A stretch of 64,000 bases of DNA from NCBI RefSeq assembly GCF_000421565.1, contig NZ_ATXG01000001.1, positions 558,001-622,000 on the forward strand, written 5' to 3'. Numbering within the stretch: the stretch's first letter is position 1; each line of letters begins with the position of its first letter. The stretch is from Agromyces subbeticus DSM 16689. GTDB lineage: Bacteria; Actinomycetota; Actinomycetes; Actinomycetales; Microbacteriaceae. The notes beneath the pieces are model-generated. The model made no database searches and was not told the DNA's origin. It worked only from the letters and a program-made list of their open reading frames with translations. A program made the translations under genes and the position numbers. Positions 14,833 to 37,205 of this stretch are shown piece by piece.

Positions 14833-16025
14833 CCTCAGCCCCCTCGATCGACGCCGTGTTCGACCTCGACGCCCTGCTCAGCGCCGAGGAGCGCGACTGG
14901 CAGCTGAAGGCGCGCGCGTTCGCGCAGGAGCGAATCCTGCCGGTCATCGAAGACGACTTCGAGGCCAAGCACTTCCGCCGCGAGTTCGTGAAGGAGCTCG
15001 GCGATGCCGGCTTCCTCGGCATGCACCTGCAGGGCTACGGATGCGCCGGAGCGGGCGCCGTCTCATACGGCCTCGTGTGCCTCGAGCTCGAGGCGGCCGA
15101 CAGCGGCTGGCGCACCTTCGTGTCGGTGCAGGGCTCGCTCGCGATGAGCGCGATCCACAAGTACGGCTCCGAGGAGCAGAAGCAGCGCTGGCTTCCCGGC
15201 ATGGCCGCGGGTGACCTCGTCGGCTGCTTCGCGCTCACCGAACCGCAGGGCGGCTCCGACCCAGCCGGGATGACGACGACCGCGCGCCGTGACGGCGACG
15301 GCTGGGTGCTCGACGGTGCGAAGCGCTGGATCGGCCTCGCATCGGTCGCCGACGTCGCCGTGGTGTGGGCGAAGGTCGACGACGCCGAGTTCGGCGGTGG
15401 CGACGGGCGGCCCACGGTGCGCGGCTTCCTCGTGCCGACCGCGACGCCCGGCTTCACGGCGACGCCGATCGACGGCAAGCTCTCGATGCGCGCCTCGGTG
15501 CAGTGCGACATCGAACTCGACGGCGTTCGCGTCGGTGACGACGCGCTGCTGCCCGGAGCGAAGGGTCTCTCGGGTCCGTTCGGCTGCCTGAACGAAGCGC
15601 GCTACGGCATCGTCTGGGGCGCGATGGGCGCCGCGCGTTCGTGCCTCGAGGCGGCGATATCGCGCTCGACGTCGCGCGAGGTGTTCGGCAAGCCGATCGG
15701 CGCGAACCAGCTCATCCAGGCGAAGCTCGCCGACATGTTCCTCGAGGTCGAGAAGGGCGTGCTGCTCGCCCTGCACCTCGGCCGGCTCAAAGAGCGCGGT
15801 GCGCTCACGCCCGCGCAGATCAGCGTCGGCAAGCTCAACAGCGTGCGCGAGGCGCTGCACATCGCGCACGAGGCGCGCGCCATTCTCGCGGGCGACGGCA
15901 TCACGAACGCGTGGCCGGTCATGCGGCATGCCGCGAACCTCGAGTCGGTGCGCACCTACGAGGGCACCGACGAGATCCACCAGCTGATCCTCGGGCGCGA
16001 GCTCACCGGGCTCAACGCGTTCTGA
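14829..16025 (+). CDS. gcdH: Glutaryl-CoA dehydrogenase-like acyl-CoA dehydrogenase
   Basis: FAD enzyme; glutaryl-CoA dehydrogenase oxidatively decarboxylates glutaryl-CoA to crotonyl-CoA. The 398 residues include GCFALTEPQGGSDPAGM, the GAARSCLEAAI/STSREVFGKPIGANQLIQAKLADM block and the catalytic Glu in RTYEGTDEIHQLI (Glu378); the last is shared by the GcdH branch. The start GTG 14829 overlaps the CoA-transferase stop (GTGA), so the two are translated together. Together they could turn glutarate into crotonyl-CoA, as in lysine or 5-aminovalerate breakdown. Confidence 0.88.
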   Translation: MTSAPSIDAVFDLDALLSAEERDWQLKARAFAQERILPVIEDDFEAKHFRREFVKELGDAGFLGMHLQGYGCAGAGAVSYGLVCLELEAADSGWRTFVSVQGSLAMSAIHKYGSEEQKQRWLPGMAAGDLVGCFALTEPQGGSDPAGMTTTARRDGDGWVLDGAKRWIGLASVADVAVVWAKVDDAEFGGGDGRPTVRGFLVPTATPGFTATPIDGKLSMRASVQCDIELDGVRVGDDALLPGAKGLSGPFGCLNEARYGIVWGAMGAARSCLEAAISRSTSREVFGKPIGANQLIQAKLADMFLEVEKGVLLALHLGRLKERGALTPAQISVGKLNSVREALHIAHEARAILAGDGITNAWPVMRHAANLESVRTYEGTDEIHQLILGRELTGLNAF

Positions 16026-16161: not shown

Positions 16162-17703
16162 ATGACTGAGACGAACATGGCAGCGGAGGCCGCGCGCGTG
16201 GCGCCGCGCGACGAGCTGCGGCACGACGACGATCCGATCGTGACGGATGCCGCGACCGACGTCGAGGTGGCGGTGCGGCTCGCCGCGGCCTCCGGAGTCG
16301 ATCGCTCGTCGCGCGCCGATCGGGCCCGCTGGCTGACCGCTCTCGCCGACGCGATCGAGGCGCATCGCGACGAGCTCGTGGAGCTCGCCGGCGAAGAGAC
16401 CCACCTCGGTGCCGCACGTCTCTCAGGAGAGGTCACGCGCACCGCGACGCAGCTGCGCTTCTTCGCGGGCGTCGCCCTCGAGGGCTCGTACGTCGAGGCG
16501 ACGCTCGATGCGCCCGATGCCTCGCTCACCCCGCCCCGCGCCGACCTGCGCCGCATTCTGCGCCCGATCGGCGTCGTGGCGGTGTTCGCCGCATCCAACT
16601 TCCCGTTCGCGTTCTCGGTGCTCGGCAACGACACCGCTTCGGCGCTGGCCGCCGGATGCGCGGTCGTGGTCAAGGCGCATCCCGGCCATCCCCGACTCTC
16701 GCGGCGCGTCGCCGAGCTCGGGCGTGCGGCGCTGGCCGGCGCGGGCGCTCCGGCTTCGGCGCTCGCCCTCGTCGACGGCTTCGATGCGGGCACCGCGCTC
16801 GTGCGGCATCCGCTGGTCTCGGCCGTCGGCTTCACCGGCTCGACGCGCGGCGGCCGCGCGCTCTTCGATCTCGCCGCGGCACGGCCCGCGCCGATCCCGT
16901 TCTACGGCGAACTCGGCTCGATCAACCCGGTGGTCGTCACGTCGGCCGCGGCGGCTGCGGATGCCGCGGGCATCGCCTCGGGGCTCGCCGGCTCGTTCAC
17001 CCGCGACGGCGGTCAGTACTGCACGAAGCCCGGACTCGTGTTCGTGCCCGAGGGTGCCGGGTTCGAGCGCGAGCTTGCGACCGCGCTCACCGAGGCGCCG
17101 TCGCAGGCGCTGCTCACCGACGGCATCGCCGCGGCCCACGACACCGGGTCGGCGGCGCTCGTTGCCCGTGACGACGTCGAGTTCGTCTTCGCCGGCGAAC
17201 GGATAGCGGATGCCTCGACGCCCGTGATTGCCGCCGCGCCCGTCGTCGTCGCGACCTCGGCTGAGGCGTTCGTCGCAGCACATGAGGTGTTCCTCGAGGA
17301 GTGCTTCGGGCCGCTCACCGTGCTCGTGCGCTACGCCGATGCCGCATCGCTCGCCGCCGCGCTCGCGGTGCTCGAGGGGTCGCTGACCGGCACGATCCAG
17401 CACGCCCCGGGCGAAGACGTCGCCGAGCTGACCGTCGCGCTCGAACGCGTCGCCGGCCGGGTCGTGTTCAACGGCTGGCCGACGGGCGTCGCGATCGCGT
17501 GGGCTCAGCACCACGGCGGTTCGTGGCCCGCCTCCACCGCGTCGGTGCACAGCTCGGTCGGGGCGACGGCCATTCGCCGCTGGCTCGCGCCGATCGCCTA
17601 TCAAGACGCCCCGGCGAGCGTGCTGCCGCCCGAGCTCGCCGACGGCAATCCGCTCGGCATCCCCCGACGCGAAGACGGCGTGCTCATCTCCGCGCCTCAC
17701 TAG
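16162..17703 (+). CDS. Aldehyde dehydrogenase, 2,5-dioxovalerate (alpha-ketoglutarate semialdehyde) type
   Basis: 513 residues, the length of the NADP-dependent alpha-ketoglutarate semialdehyde dehydrogenase branch. Typical stretches are GVVAVFAASNFPFAFSVLGNDTASALAAGC, VVKAHPGHP, AVGFTGSTRGGRALFDLA, PIPFYGELGSINPVVV (catalytic Glu) and SFTRDGGQYCTKPGLVF (catalytic Cys). Enzymes of this branch finish the hydroxyproline and pentose/glucarate routes by making 2-oxoglutarate. GGAAGG precedes ATG 16162. The nearby epimerase and reductase genes fit a hydroxyproline role, but the enzymes making the semialdehyde are missing here. Confidence 0.85.
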   Translation: MTETNMAAEAARVAPRDELRHDDDPIVTDAATDVEVAVRLAAASGVDRSSRADRARWLTALADAIEAHRDELVELAGEETHLGAARLSGEVTRTATQLRFFAGVALEGSYVEATLDAPDASLTPPRADLRRILRPIGVVAVFAASNFPFAFSVLGNDTASALAAGCAVVVKAHPGHPRLSRRVAELGRAALAGAGAPASALALVDGFDAGTALVRHPLVSAVGFTGSTRGGRALFDLAAARPAPIPFYGELGSINPVVVTSAAAAADAAGIASGLAGSFTRDGGQYCTKPGLVFVPEGAGFERELATALTEAPSQALLTDGIAAAHDTGSAALVARDDVEFVFAGERIADASTPVIAAAPVVVATSAEAFVAAHEVFLEECFGPLTVLVRYADAASLAAALAVLEGSLTGTIQHAPGEDVAELTVALERVAGRVVFNGWPTGVAIAWAQHHGGSWPASTASVHSSVGATAIRRWLAPIAYQDAPASVLPPELADGNPLGIPRREDGVLISAPH

Positions 17704-17708
17704 CTGCT

Positions 17709-17743
17709 GACGAGGGGCCGGCCGCACGGGCCGCCCCCTCGTC
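17709..17743. terminator. Bidirectional terminator, aldehyde dehydrogenase / small membrane protein
   Basis: GACGAGGGG (17709-17717) pairs with CCCCTCGTC (17735-17743), with further pairing of GGCC parts inside. It lies between convergent genes ending at 17703 and 17758. Confidence 0.75.
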
Positions 17744-17757
17744 GTGTGTCGAGAACC

Positions 17758-18084
17758 TCAGTTGATGCCGGGTATGACGAGCCAGCGGTTGACGAGAATC
17801 AGCCAGAGCGCGATGAGCACGATCGCGGCGATCGTGATGCTCAGCCCAGTGCGACCGCGGACGATGAGTGCGACCACGAGCACGATCAGGGTCGCGATGC
17901 CGAGCACGAGCGAACCGAACGGGATGCCCGGCAGGAACAGCGAAAGTACGAACAGCGCCGCGACGATGACCTCGATGATGCCGACGATCGAGGTGCCGCG
18001 GCCGCGGAGGCGACGAATGCCGTCGATGAGCGCGAGCACACCGCCGACGAGAGCGATGACGAGAAGCCAGGACAGGGTGAACAC
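17758..18084 (-). CDS. Small four-helix membrane protein
   Basis: 108 residues made almost entirely of about four hydrophobic segments (LSWLLVIALVGGVLALIDGI, IVGIIEVIVAALFVLSLFL, LVLGIATLIVLVVALIV, ITIAAIVLIALWLILV) with a basic loop RRLRGRG. GTG 18084 is chosen because AAGGAA lies upstream and the frame beyond it codes for unlikely, Cys/Arg/Pro-rich sequence. No motif; function unknown. It is a common type of uncharacterised actinobacterial protein. Confidence 0.7.
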   Translation of the reverse strand: MFTLSWLLVIALVGGVLALIDGIRRLRGRGTSIVGIIEVIVAALFVLSLFLPGIPFGSLVLGIATLIVLVVALIVRGRTGLSITIAAIVLIALWLILVNRWLVIPGIN

Positions 18085-18395
18085 GGGTAGGGGGTTCCTT
18101 CCGATCGGTGTGGGGGAGCACCACGGCGACGGAGGGGACTCCATCGCCGCGGCCCAGCCTATCGACGGGCCCCTCTGCAGCTCGGGAGGGTTGCGCGGGG
18201 CGCTCGACCACGGTATGCCGCAAACGGAATGCGATCGCGGGCACGGACGGCGCGAGTTCCCGCCCGGCGGGGAATGAAACGCGGGGTAACGCCGTTTTCT
18301 CCACGGGCGAGGTCGTGATGGACTCGACTCGAAACCCGATCCCCGTGCACGGCACCACGTCGCGGGCACAGCACTCCCCACGAACGGAGCTCCAC
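18085..18395 (+). promoter_or_regulatory. 311-bp divergent spacer upstream of the cystine importer
   Basis: No gene. It holds the promoter region for the leftward membrane protein, the 15-mer ATGCCGCAAACGGAA at 18215-18229 (also found at 37091-37105) and the SigR-like promoter at 18271-18296. I looked for a SAM or other riboswitch core and saw none. Confidence 0.6.
18271..18296 (+). promoter_or_regulatory. SigR/SigH-type promoter of the cystine importer
   Basis: GGAAT (18271-18275), exactly 18 bases, GTT (18294-18296, as CGTT). This is the actinobacterial thiol-stress ECF sigma consensus GGAA(T/C)-N18-GTT. The start of transcription would be near 18302, leaving a leader of about 95 bases. 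The functional match (cystine uptake under disulphide stress) supports it. Confidence 0.6.
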
Positions 18396-19211
18396 ATGTC
18401 TCGCGCACCCCGCGTTCGCACCCTGCTCGGCCTCGCCGCAGCATCCGTCGCCCTCGTCACCCTCGCCGCCTGCTCGAGCGGCGCGCCGGCATCGAGCGAT
18501 GCCGCGAGCGACGACGAGTACGGACTCGTGAAGGCTGGAACGCTGACTGTCGCGACCGAGGGCACCTACCCGCCCTTCACATACCACGAGGGCGGCGCAG
18601 GCGAACTCGTCGGCTATGACGTCGAGATCGCCGAGGCCGTCGCCGAGAAGCTCGGCCTCGAGATCCAGTTCGAAGAGACGCAGTGGGACGCGATCTTCGC
18701 GGGTCTCGACGCCGGCCGCTTCGACGTCATCGCGAACCAGGTGTCGATCAACCCCGAGCGCGAAGAGAGCTACCTCTTCTCGACGCCGTACACGGTGTCG
18801 CCGAGCGTCGTCGTGGTGAACGAGGGCGATGACTCGATCTCGAGCTTTGAAGACCTCGAGGGCAAGACCACGGCGCAGTCGCTCACGAGCAACTTCTACC
18901 AGCTCGCCGTCGACGCGGGTGCGAACGTCGAGGCCGTCGAGGGCTGGGCGCAGGCCGTCGCCCTCCTCGAGCAGGGCCGAGTCGACGCGACCGTGAACGA
19001 CAAGCTCACCTACCTCGACTATCTCAAGCAGACGCCCGACGCCAAGCTCGCCGTGGCCGCCGAGACCGATCCGAGCGAGAGCGCCCTCACGTTCGCGAAA
19101 GACAAGACCGCACTCGTGAAGGCCGTCGACGAGGCACTCGCCGAACTCCGCGAGGAGGGCGTGCTCGCTGAGCTCGGCGAGAAGTACTTCGGCGAGGACG
19201 TCTCGCAGTAG
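18396..19211 (+). CDS. Cystine-type ABC transporter substrate-binding lipoprotein
   Basis: 271 residues. A signal peptide ends in the lipobox LAAC (about residues 24-27), so the mature protein is a lipid-anchored solute-binding protein of family 3. The core (LTVATEGTYPPFTYHE, GYDVEIAEAVAEKLG, FEETQWDAIFAGLDAGRFDVIANQVSINPER, FSTPYTVS) is that of L-cystine-binding proteins (FliY/TcyJ branch); the phrase DVIANQV is typical. It is first gene of a three-gene importer and separated from the permease by a 72-base hairpin, which usually gives the binding protein a higher mRNA level. Confidence 0.9.
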   Translation: MSRAPRVRTLLGLAAASVALVTLAACSSGAPASSDAASDDEYGLVKAGTLTVATEGTYPPFTYHEGGAGELVGYDVEIAEAVAEKLGLEIQFEETQWDAIFAGLDAGRFDVIANQVSINPEREESYLFSTPYTVSPSVVVVNEGDDSISSFEDLEGKTTAQSLTSNFYQLAVDAGANVEAVEGWAQAVALLEQGRVDATVNDKLTYLDYLKQTPDAKLAVAAETDPSESALTFAKDKTALVKAVDEALAELREEGVLAELGEKYFGEDVSQ

Positions 19212-19230
19212 CGCTCGACCGCAAACACCG

Positions 19231-19302
19231 GCGGATGCCGCGTTCCCCTGATTCGCACGGACGACAGCGTCCGAGTGGAATCATGGGGGGCGCGGCATCC
19301 GC
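19231..19302 (+). other. Long intercistronic hairpin in the cystine operon
   Basis: GCGGATGCCGCG (19231-19242) pairs with CGCGGCATCCGC (19291-19302), TGATTC with GAATCA, and CGGACG with CGTCCG, so the whole 72 bases fold into one interrupted stem. Position (between binding protein and permease) suggests mRNA stabilisation of the first gene. Confidence 0.75.
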
Positions 19303-19326
19303 CGTATTCCGGAAGGCGGTGAGGCG

Positions 19327-19989
19327 ATGACCGAGTGGCAGCTCGCGCTCGACTCGTTCTGGCCATTGTTCTGGGGCGGCATCAGCGGCACCATCCCGCT
19401 CGCAGTGGCCTCCTTCGCGCTCGGCCTCGTGCTCGCGCTCGGCGTCGCGCTCATGCGCATCAGCCGCAATCGGGTGCTGAGTGGCATCGCGAGGTTCTAC
19501 ATCTCGGTGATCCGCGGCACGCCGCTGCTCGTGCAACTGTTCGTGATCTTCTACGGCATGCCGTCGATCGGAATCACGATCGACCCGTGGCCGAGCGCGA
19601 TCATCGCATTCTCGCTCAACGTCGGCGGGTACGCGGCCGAGGTGATCAGGGCGGCGATCCTCTCGGTGCCGAAGGGGCAGTGGGAGGCCGGGTTCACGAT
19701 CGGCATGTCGCCGGGCACGACCCTCGTGCGGCTGATCCTGCCGCAGGCGGCTCGAGTGTCGGTGCCGCCGCTGTCGAACACCTTCATCTCGCTCGTGAAG
19801 GACACCTCGCTCGCCTCGCTCATCCTCGTGACAGAGATGTTCCGAGTGGCGCAGGAGATCGCCGCGTTCAGCCGCGAGTTCCTGCTCATCTACATCGAGG
19901 CTGCGCTCATCTACTGGCTGTTCTGCCTCGTGCTCTCGAGCGGGCAGAACCTGATCGAGAAGAGGTTGGATCGCTATGTCGCCCACTGA
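19327..19989 (+). CDS. Cystine-type ABC transporter permease
   Basis: 220 residues, about five membrane helices. The His/Glu/Gln-type polar amino acid permease signature is clear: [48 protein letters not shown] (EAA loop contacting the ATPase) and [35 protein letters not shown] lies upstream of ATG 19327. Its end overlaps the ATPase start by 14 bases. Confidence 0.92.
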
Positions 19990-20809
19990 CGCCGACCCGC
20001 TCGCCCCGATCGCCGCGCCCGACGACTCCGTGCTGCTCACAGCCCGCGGCATCCGCAAGTCGTTCGGCGACAACGAGGTGCTGCGCTCGATCGACCTCGA
20101 GGTGCGGCGCGGCGAGGTCGTCGTGCTCATCGGCCCGAGCGGCTCGGGCAAGACCACCGTGCTGCGTTCGCTCAACGGGCTCGAGACGCCCGGCGGCGGC
20201 ACCATCGAGTTCGCCGACGGGCCGGTGCTCGACTTCGCGAAGCCGATCACGAAGGCGCAGCGCTACGCGCTTCGCGATCGATCGGCGATGGTCTTCCAGC
20301 AGCACAACCTCTTTCCGCACATGACCGTGCTGCAGAACGTGATCGAGGGCCCGATCCGGGTGCAGCGAGTGCCCAAGGCGCAAGCGATCGCTGAGGCATC
20401 CGCTCTGCTCGACCGGGTCGGCCTCGCCGAGAAGCGCGACGCCTACCCGTTCGAGCTCTCGGGCGGGCAGCAGCAGCGGGTGGGCATCGTGCGAGCGCTC
20501 GCCTTGAAGCCGCAGGTGCTGCTCTTCGACGAGCCGACGAGCGCGCTCGACCCCGAACTCGTGGGCGAGGTGCTGCAGGTGATCAAGGAGCTCGCCGACG
20601 AGGGCTGGACCATGGTGGTCGTCACGCACGAGCTGAGTTTCGCCCGGCAGGCGGCCGACGAGGTGCTCTTCATGGACGGCGGCGTCGTGGTCGAGCGCGG
20701 CGAGCCCGGCACGATCTTCACCAACCCGACGCACGAGCGCACGCGGCGGTTCCTCGACCGCATCCTGCGGCCGCTCGAGGATGGCGGCGAGGCTCCGCCG
20801 GTCGAGTAG
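19976..20809 (+). CDS. Cystine-type ABC transporter ATP-binding protein
   Basis: 277 residues with Walker [11 protein letters not shown]-loop [18 protein letters not shown], signature LSGGQQQRV, Walker [15 protein letters not shown] and the His switch VVTHE. It energises import through the preceding permease. The last four residues and stop (PPVE, TAG) come from the left edge of a GGTCGAGTAG repeat copy, so the original C-terminus has been changed or trimmed by the element. Confidence 0.93.
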
Positions 20810-20872
20810 CGGAGCGTATCGAGACCCGCATTCAGGTCTCGATACGGCGCTGGCGCGCCTACTCGACCGGCG
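20798..20872. repeat. GGTCGAGTAG inverted repeat, copy 3 (after the cystine operon)
   Basis: Starts as CCGGTCGAGTAG and ends CTACTCGACCGG, with inner arms CGTATCGAGACC / GGTCTCGATACG. It carries the TAG stop of the ATPase gene (20807-20809) and may act as the operon's terminator. Confidence 0.95.
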
Positions 20873-20906
20873 GCGCTCGTCGCGGCACGCCCGCTAGCGT
20901 TGAAGC

Positions 20907-21656
20907 ATGGCCGGCTCGCGACGCACCAGCGCTGACGGGCAGCAGCGGGCGCGGCGGGCGCTCGGAGTCTTCCGGCTGCTGGTCGCGGTGCTCGAGATCG
21001 CCGCGCTGGTCGGCAACTTCCAGTACGTGCTCGGCTTCCGGCTCTTCGCGACCGCCAACTTCTTCAGCTACTTCACGGTGCAATCGGCGTTCGCGGCGGT
21101 CGTCACGCTCGGCATCGCCGGCGCGTTCGCGCTCTTCGCCCCGCGCGACCCCGCGTGGCTCGGGGTGCTGCGCACCATGGTCACGGTCTACGTGCTCGTC
21201 TCGGGCATCGTGTTCGCGATCATCGTCGCGCAGGCGTCGACCCGCGACTACCGCATGGACGTGCCGTGGTCGGACACCGTGCTGCACTTCGTGGTGCCGG
21301 CGCTCGCCGTGGCCGCGTGGACCGCCGACAGCATCATGGCCGTGAACCCGCGGGTGCCGTGGTCGACCGCCGGCTGGGTGCTCGTGTTCCCGTCGATCTG
21401 GCTCGTCTACACGTTGCTTCGCGGCGCCGACATCGGCTGGTACCCGTACTTCTTCCTCGACGAGGCACAGGTCGGTGGCCCCGTGGGCGTCGCCATCTAC
21501 TGCCTGCTCGTGCTCGTGATCTTCGTGTCGCTGACGGCGGGGCTCGTTGCCATCAATCGAGCGTTGTGGCGAAGGGCGCGAGCGCCTCGAGCACCGCTGC
21601 CTGGAACGCCTGATCGTCGAGTGCTTCGAGCCGAGTCGCCTGCCCTGCGGCGATGA
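20907..21656 (+). CDS. Pr6Pr-like (FAR-17a/AIG1 superfamily-type) membrane protein
   Basis: 249 residues, about six membrane segments. It has FRLLVAVLEIAALVGN, ATANFFSYFTVQSAF, a central conserved WSDTVLHFVVPALAVAAW (histidine in a helix) and a W(Y/P)YFFLD-type end, as in actinobacterial Pr6Pr proteins. A second, divergent copy lies at 60552-61256 with the same plan (NFFSFFTILSNALS, LHVWAPLYVVLDW, WYPYPFLNP). The family's fold in eukaryotes includes fatty-acid-ester hydrolases; function in bacteria is unknown. ATG 20907 has TAGCGT six bases upstream (leaderless). The last 100 bases overlap the convergent amine oxidase gene. Confidence 0.8.
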   Translation: MAGSRRTSADGQQRARRALGVFRLLVAVLEIAALVGNFQYVLGFRLFATANFFSYFTVQSAFAAVVTLGIAGAFALFAPRDPAWLGVLRTMVTVYVLVSGIVFAIIVAQASTRDYRMDVPWSDTVLHFVVPALAVAAWTADSIMAVNPRVPWSTAGWVLVFPSIWLVYTLLRGADIGWYPYFFLDEAQVGGPVGVAIYCLLVLVIFVSLTAGLVAINRALWRRARAPRAPLPGTPDRRVLRAESPALRR

Positions 21657-37063: not shown

Positions 37064-37205
37064 GCCTTCGATGGTGACACGGGCGAGGGGATGCCGCAAA
37101 CGGAAGAATCTCGAAACTTCTGCCGTTGGCCAGTGGATTCCCGATATTCACCTCGATCATGTCGAATGCGGCGTTGAAAGAACATGATTCTGCGGCGGAC
37201 GCTGC

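Follow-up and report, generated by a model that had tools for sequence, protein, structure and literature searches.

A SigR-type promoter match overlaps a direct repeat shared with sulfur genes upstream of a cystine-type importer operon in Agromyces subbeticus

The importer operon and its upstream region

The window, i.e., the whole 64-kb stretch of Agromyces subbeticus DNA that was analysed, contains an importer operon of three genes (Table 1). The initial annotation had named it a cystine importer. This assignment is likely, not proven, as cystine (Tcy) models are the top NCBIfam matches for all three subunits but none of them exceeds its curated cut-off. Among PDB sequences, the binding protein matches the cystine binder 2yln best (214 bits).

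About 100 nt upstream of the importer genes lies the sequence GGAAT-N18-GTT (GGAATGAAACGCGGGGTAACGCCGTT). It had been annotated as an exact match to the SigR consensus in both sequence and spacing, and this was confirmed, with zero mismatches and a spacing of exactly 18, inside the range of 16-19 nt of the SigH promoters of C. glutamicum. Within the spacer of this site a direct repeat, GnMAY-N5-GTMAY, is found at 18276-18290. It is followed by a block TGN-TGGACT, which reads TGA-TGGACT in A. subbeticus, where TGGACT is without the A usual at position 2 of a -10 element. With caution, the block may be read as a weak -10 of the housekeeping type, and the GTT of the SigR-type match falls at the would-be -35 zone of this second promoter. 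A version of the upstream pattern that comprises all conserved bases (block 1, see below) matches without mismatch only once in the genome.

An Rfam search of positions 17600-21000 detected no riboswitch or leader RNA, and a simple sigma-70 and terminator scan found nothing. A leader peptide starting at GTG ATG GAC was rejected, because the indels between species in the Agromyces alignment are not multiples of three.

Table 1. Features at the importer locus (positions in the window)
Feature	Position	Strand	Basis or remark
Divergent small membrane protein	17758..18084	-	No family match in profile searches
SigR/SigH-type promoter match GGAAT-N18-GTT	18271..18296	+	Sequence; N18 in 33/45 Agromyces, N19 in 4 more
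Half-site 1 of direct repeat, GAAAC	18276..18280	+	GMAAC in most Agromyces, GTMAY in other genera
Half-site 2 of direct repeat, GTAAC (GTMAY)	18286..18290	+	10 bp after half-site 1
TGN-TGGACT block, candidate extended -10	18316..18324	+	22-23 nt after GTT, 28-29 nt after half-site 2
Probable ribosome-binding site AACGGAG	18383..18389	+	Sequence; conserved in Agromyces alignment
Lipoprotein substrate-binding protein, SBP_bac_3, cystine-type	18396..19211	+	Best NCBIfam PRK11260, 185 bits (cut-off 312)
Permease	19327..19989	+	Best NCBIfam cystine permease PRK15100, 251.5 bits (cut-off 300)
ATPase	19976..20809	+	Best NCBIfam TcyN PRK11264, 320.2 bits (cut-off 406)

SigR-type sites in the window and in the genome

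The pattern GGAAT-N17..19-GTT has two matches in the window, against a mean of 1.06 in shuffled sequence, and at least two were obtained in 26 of 100 shuffles. A lone match therefore says little, because about one per window is expected, and GGAAT-N18-GTT could be a chance match without function. The site at 18271-18296 is lifted above chance, because it is kept in 33 of the 45 orthologous upstream regions of Agromyces (shuffle mean 0.05). The fixed distance between GTT and the TGN block also makes a coincidence unlikely, and we give this explanation hardly any credence. The other match in the window (37115-37141, minus strand, spacing 19) is located between genes for a luciferase-like oxidoreductase and an XRE-type regulator, the product of the latter having a long C-terminal region.

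The 4.3-Mb genome (34 contigs) harbours both the cognate sigma factor and an RsrA-like anti-sigma gene. SigR scores 306.5 bits on TIGR02947 (cut-off 251.55) in the profile search, and the product of the gene next to sigR has the HxxxCxxC motif and reaches 61.5 bits on the RsrA model, 1 bit under the cut-off of 62.5. In the whole genome 39 matches to GGAAT-N18-GTT were detected. The reversed pattern gave one match but is not relied on as a control, because it has other dinucleotides. About one third of the 39 sites precede known SigR-type genes, with gene names taken from reading the translations: trxB, dnaK, clpB, sigR itself, FrnE/DsbA-like and DUF4193-like genes, several luciferase-like oxidoreductases and SufB. 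Except for SufB, these SigR-type targets read GGAATA, including the site of sigR, whereas the importer site reads GGAATG. The SufB-like gene has a GGAATG-type site 24 nt upstream (L018, G000:C2:390640-390665); no other canonical-looking SigR target of this genome departs from GGAATA. At another locus (L172), two GGAAT-N18-GTT sites (G000:C16:15430-15455, minus strand, and 15480-15505, plus strand) point apart with 24 nt between them. Flanked by a luciferase-like oxidoreductase gene on one side and an NADP-oxidoreductase-like gene on the other, they possibly form a divergent pair of SigR promoters.

The exact match and the presence of SigR and RsrA-like genes agree with a single SigR-dependent promoter at 18271-18296, which would drive the importer after disulphide stress and in which the other conserved bases would be spacer and leader. 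The GGAATG in place of GGAATA speaks against this, as does the pattern of conservation.

Conservation within Agromyces

A clear orthologue was found in 45 of 60 Agromyces genomes, and all 45 upstream regions were aligned. The alignment is variable except for two conserved blocks: block 1 reads GGRAAT-G-MAAC-GCGGG-GTMAY-GCS-GTT and block 2 TGN-TGGACT. The distance from GTT to TGN is 22 or 23 nt in 42 of 42 measured regions (L133 and L166 were missed by the pattern and L129 yielded no distance; all three are included in the motif counts of the 45 regions), and half-site 2 is separated from TGGACT by 28 or 29 nt.

The elements are not kept equally well. GGAAT-N18-GTT is exact in 33 of 45 regions and has N19 in four, so that 37 carry it at N17-19. 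In the remaining eight the SigR site is absent, GGAAT being changed to GAAAT in seven and gone in one; these comprise the three nearest relatives, whose binding proteins are 96-97% identical, and five other Agromyces. The repeat GnMAY-N5-GTMAY is present in 41 of 45 regions (shuffle mean 0.48) and TGNYGGACT in 44, and the repeat persists where GGAAT is lost, for example in the three nearest relatives.

As a control, the known SigR target trxB was used. It keeps GGAATA and GTT in 30 of 30 cases (best 30 loci of the 60 genomes), so retention of the importer site in close relatives, with 33 of 45 at N18, lies below that of trxB among its best loci. Conservation per spacer position is 1.57 bits for trxB (best 30 loci) and 1.33 bits for tcyA, and spacer conservation alone cannot separate the readings, because the trxB spacer is conserved as well. 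The latter is due to TAGACT, a -10-like hexamer within this spacer (G000:C3:269235-269260, minus strand, L021), which is kept in 29 of the 30 best loci (L203-L232) and reads TACACT in one. The trxB gene of Agromyces thus likely has overlapping housekeeping and SigR promoters of its own.

The loss of GGAAT in eight of 45 Agromyces including the nearest relatives, the N19 spacing in four more and the contrast with trxB all count against a promoter used by SigR alone, which also leaves unexplained both the fixed distance to TGN-TGGACT and a repeat that is common with metFE.

Conservation in other Microbacteriaceae

In a search of 398 Microbacteriaceae genomes, 117 had a match to the binding protein at 1e-70, seven of them Agromyces. 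From the 110 non-Agromyces regions 103 from 26 genera were used; two at contig ends and five low-ranking ones were left out. Here GTnAY-Nk-GTnAY occurs with k=5 in 44 of 103 regions; no other k in the range 0-20 is found in more than five. Counted by genus, N5 is found in 17 of 26 and other spacings in at most four. The repeat was first spotted by eye among 23 loci (L180-L202). The remaining 80 regions were fetched once the motif was defined, and 34 of these have it. A strict repeat is missing from 59 of the 103 regions, 26 of which show a looser form. In 38 of the 44 repeat regions TAnnnT begins 27, 28 or 29 nt after half-site 2 (random-position control 0.8), and the first TAnnnT is never found at the other allowed distances within 24-33 nt.

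GGAAT itself occurs in 76 of the 103 regions (shuffle mean 13.6), and GGAAT-N17..19-GTT in 53 (shuffle mean 0.34), covering 18 of the 26 genera. The spacing peaks at k=17 (14 regions), 18 (27) and 19 (12), with further occurrences at k=21 (11) and k=13 (6); any remaining k from 8 to 30 has two at most. SigR-type control of the importer therefore looks old and widespread, because the pattern spans 18 of 26 other genera. This argues for SigR, as does genus g35, in which all nine species read carry GGAATACC...GCGTTGA, i.e., GGAATA, and are without TAnnnT at GTT. Taking these points together with the Agromyces data, we consider it quite unlikely that a SigR promoter alone accounts for the locus of A. 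subbeticus. In two species of genus g34 (L247 and L267), a second GGAATACC-N19-GTT lies far upstream of tcyA, separate from the repeat, and may belong to another gene.

The relative position of the two elements differs between genera. In other genera GGAAT is placed just after half-site 2; in Agromyces it is found just before half-site 1, and the repeat is therefore now within the SigR spacer. In genus g79 the spacing between GGAAT and GTT is 21 in eight of nine species, unfit for SigR. No usable GTT accompanies the repeat and TAnnnT in genera g78, g3, g22 and g57. The placement in other genera and the spacing in g79 fit a second alternative, namely that only a sulfur operator with its housekeeping-type promoter is used here and GGAAT-N18-GTT is a remnant of an ancestral SigR site or part of an extended operator. 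It would also account for the eight Agromyces in which GGAAT became GAAAT or was lost, most of which retain the repeat and TGNYGGACT. However, there is no obvious need to retain GGAAT in 37 of 45 Agromyces if SigR never reads it, and the family-wide spacing peak at 17-19 also speaks against it. We regard this alternative as rather improbable, albeit less so than SigR alone.

The same layout at other sulfur genes

The pattern GTCAY-N5-GTNAY-N27..30-TAnnnT gave ten matches in ten genomes and none with the reversed control. They precede metF (four times), thioredoxin-like genes (three times), msrA and tcyA, and one is without an assigned gene; four of the ten matches and their labels rest on reading the translations. 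Profile searches served to check the labels MetF, MetE, MetN, MetQ, MmuM, MsrA, OsmC, DUF4395, thioredoxin-like and rhodanese. In A. subbeticus itself, one repeat site stands before metF-metE and the other before thioredoxin-DUF4395-OsmC. The latter three genes form one operon behind the sulfur box (G000:C9:42167-43638, L367), in which DUF4395 may partner the thioredoxin in the membrane and be linked to sulfur.

A near-identical pattern had 26 matches in 24 further genomes, against five for the reversed control. At least ten of them are sulfur genes and 14-16 are not obviously sulfur-linked. Six of these further matches precede tcyA. Others stand before metF, metN (in a metNIQ operon), the homocysteine methyltransferase gene mmuM (350 bits, cut-off 215) and genes for a rhodanese, an FMN reductase and a thioredoxin-like CxxC protein without family match. 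The same layout thus precedes metFE, the thioredoxin-DUF4395-OsmC cluster, metNIQ, mmuM and msrA, and sulfur amino acids and thiols are the common theme of the repeat-bearing genes.

A proposed composite promoter

We therefore favour, with slightly better than even confidence, a composite in which a sulfur-regulon promoter at 18271-18324 is overlaid by a SigR-type promoter. A predicted regulator would bind the direct repeat, 28 nt upstream of the weak housekeeping-type -10 TGA-TGGACT, and would govern the cystine importer together with metFE and the thioredoxin-DUF4395-OsmC operon, in other genera also with metNIQ, mmuM and msrA. As the repeat lies next to the -35 zone, it suggests an activator, which would respond to a shortage of sulfur amino acids. 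After disulphide stress, SigR could use the overlaid GGAAT-N18-GTT, which would provide an additional start some 30 nt upstream of the first. Since the repeat is located within the SigR spacer, regulator and SigR should exclude each other.

Several observations weaken the composite: 59 of the 103 non-Agromyces regions are without the strict repeat, TGGACT is without the A, half-site 1 is GMAAC in Agromyces, 14-16 of the 26 further matches are not obviously sulfur genes, the search for the regulator gave no candidate, and the SigR site is gone in eight of 45 Agromyces.

The initial annotation, in which SigR controls the importer, is partly supported. It had recognized a real element and named it reasonably, and SigR, the RsrA-like gene, the GGAATA site at sigR, the cystine-type importer and the spread over 18 of 26 genera all agree with it. 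The absence of the site from eight of 45 Agromyces, the three closest relatives among them, compared with 30 of 30 best loci for trxB, does not. The more constrained repeat and -10-like sequence, which are common to sulfur amino-acid genes, had been missed, and these data do not establish SigR as the direct and sole control of cystine uptake.

More broadly, we tentatively propose, at somewhat less than even confidence, that in Microbacteriaceae an unnamed sulfur amino-acid regulator recognizes GTMAY-N5-GTMAY some 28 nt upstream of the -10 of metFE, tcyABC, metNIQ, mmuM and thioredoxin operons, and that in Agromyces its site was built into a SigR spacer, where SigR and the regulator would compete at the importer. 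If true, two routes that secure cysteine for mycothiol would be joined, namely stress via SigR and supply via the sulfur amino-acid regulon. The repeat that is common to the metF, thioredoxin and importer promoters offers a short DNA bait with which the missing regulator of this large family, whose members live in soil and on plants, could be caught.

Search for the regulator and comparison with known systems

No regulator candidate emerged from nine readable LysR-type loci (PF00126 list), from the PF00486 list, or from the neighbourhoods of tcyA in ten genomes and of seven box-bearing sites. A search of the PMC literature found no description of a regulon with this repeat, which is weak evidence of novelty. 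LysR-type boxes have the form TnA-N7-TnA, with T-N11-A. GTnAY-N5-GTnAY contains TnA-N7-TnA, but half-site 1 of Agromyces (GMAAC) is without the T.

The SigR side of the locus resembles SigR/RsrA of Streptomyces and SigH/RshA of Corynebacterium and Mycobacterium in that the GGAAT/GTT spacing fits, sigR and an RsrA-like gene are present, and trxB, dnaK, clpB and sigR of A. subbeticus carry such sites. The SigH promoters of C. glutamicum have GGAAT...GTT spacings of 16-19, and the SigH genes presented in the text consulted include no cystine importer (PMC3489674). The importer site differs in that it reads GGAATG, is lost in eight of 45 congeners and holds another conserved element in its spacer.

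According to the available text on CmbR, a LysR-type regulator of Streptococcus pneumoniae, it controls metEF and tcyB, and metQ is also cysteine-responsive (PMC5131005). Control of metEF and of a cysteine/cystine transporter gene by a single regulator is thus a likeness, whereas the CmbR operator described there is an A+T-rich, palindrome-like site of 21 bp, GYGATAAAAAWWAYTTATMAC (PMC5131005). None of the 148 regions analysed here contains a reduced core of this site. NdgR of Streptomyces coelicolor is an IclR-type regulator, itself SigR-induced, which links thiol stress to cysteine genes and metF; its site, as given in the accessible text, is a 15-bp imperfect palindrome, in contrast to the repeat here (PMC4340878). 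A simplified NdgR pattern matched 0 of 148 regions. The same was true for a simplified form of the McbR operator.

Direct repeats of GTnAC-like half-sites are known from the boxes of the OmpR-type regulators MtrA, GlnR and AfsQ1 (PMC13189361, PMC6265350, PMC10704036, PMC6988585). In the available portions of these papers mostly 6 nt separate the GTnAC cores, giving a period of 11 bp, and PMC13189361 also gives 5 or 6 nt. The repeat here differs, with 5 nt and a period of 10 bp, and a box of these regulators was rejected on the basis of spacing. In the 11-bp phase, GTnAC-N6-GTnAC is found in 0 of 148 regions, and GTnAY at N6 in 2 of 103 versus 44 of 103 at N5. It is possible that the repeat of the sulfur genes is a 5-nt variant of the MtrA box.
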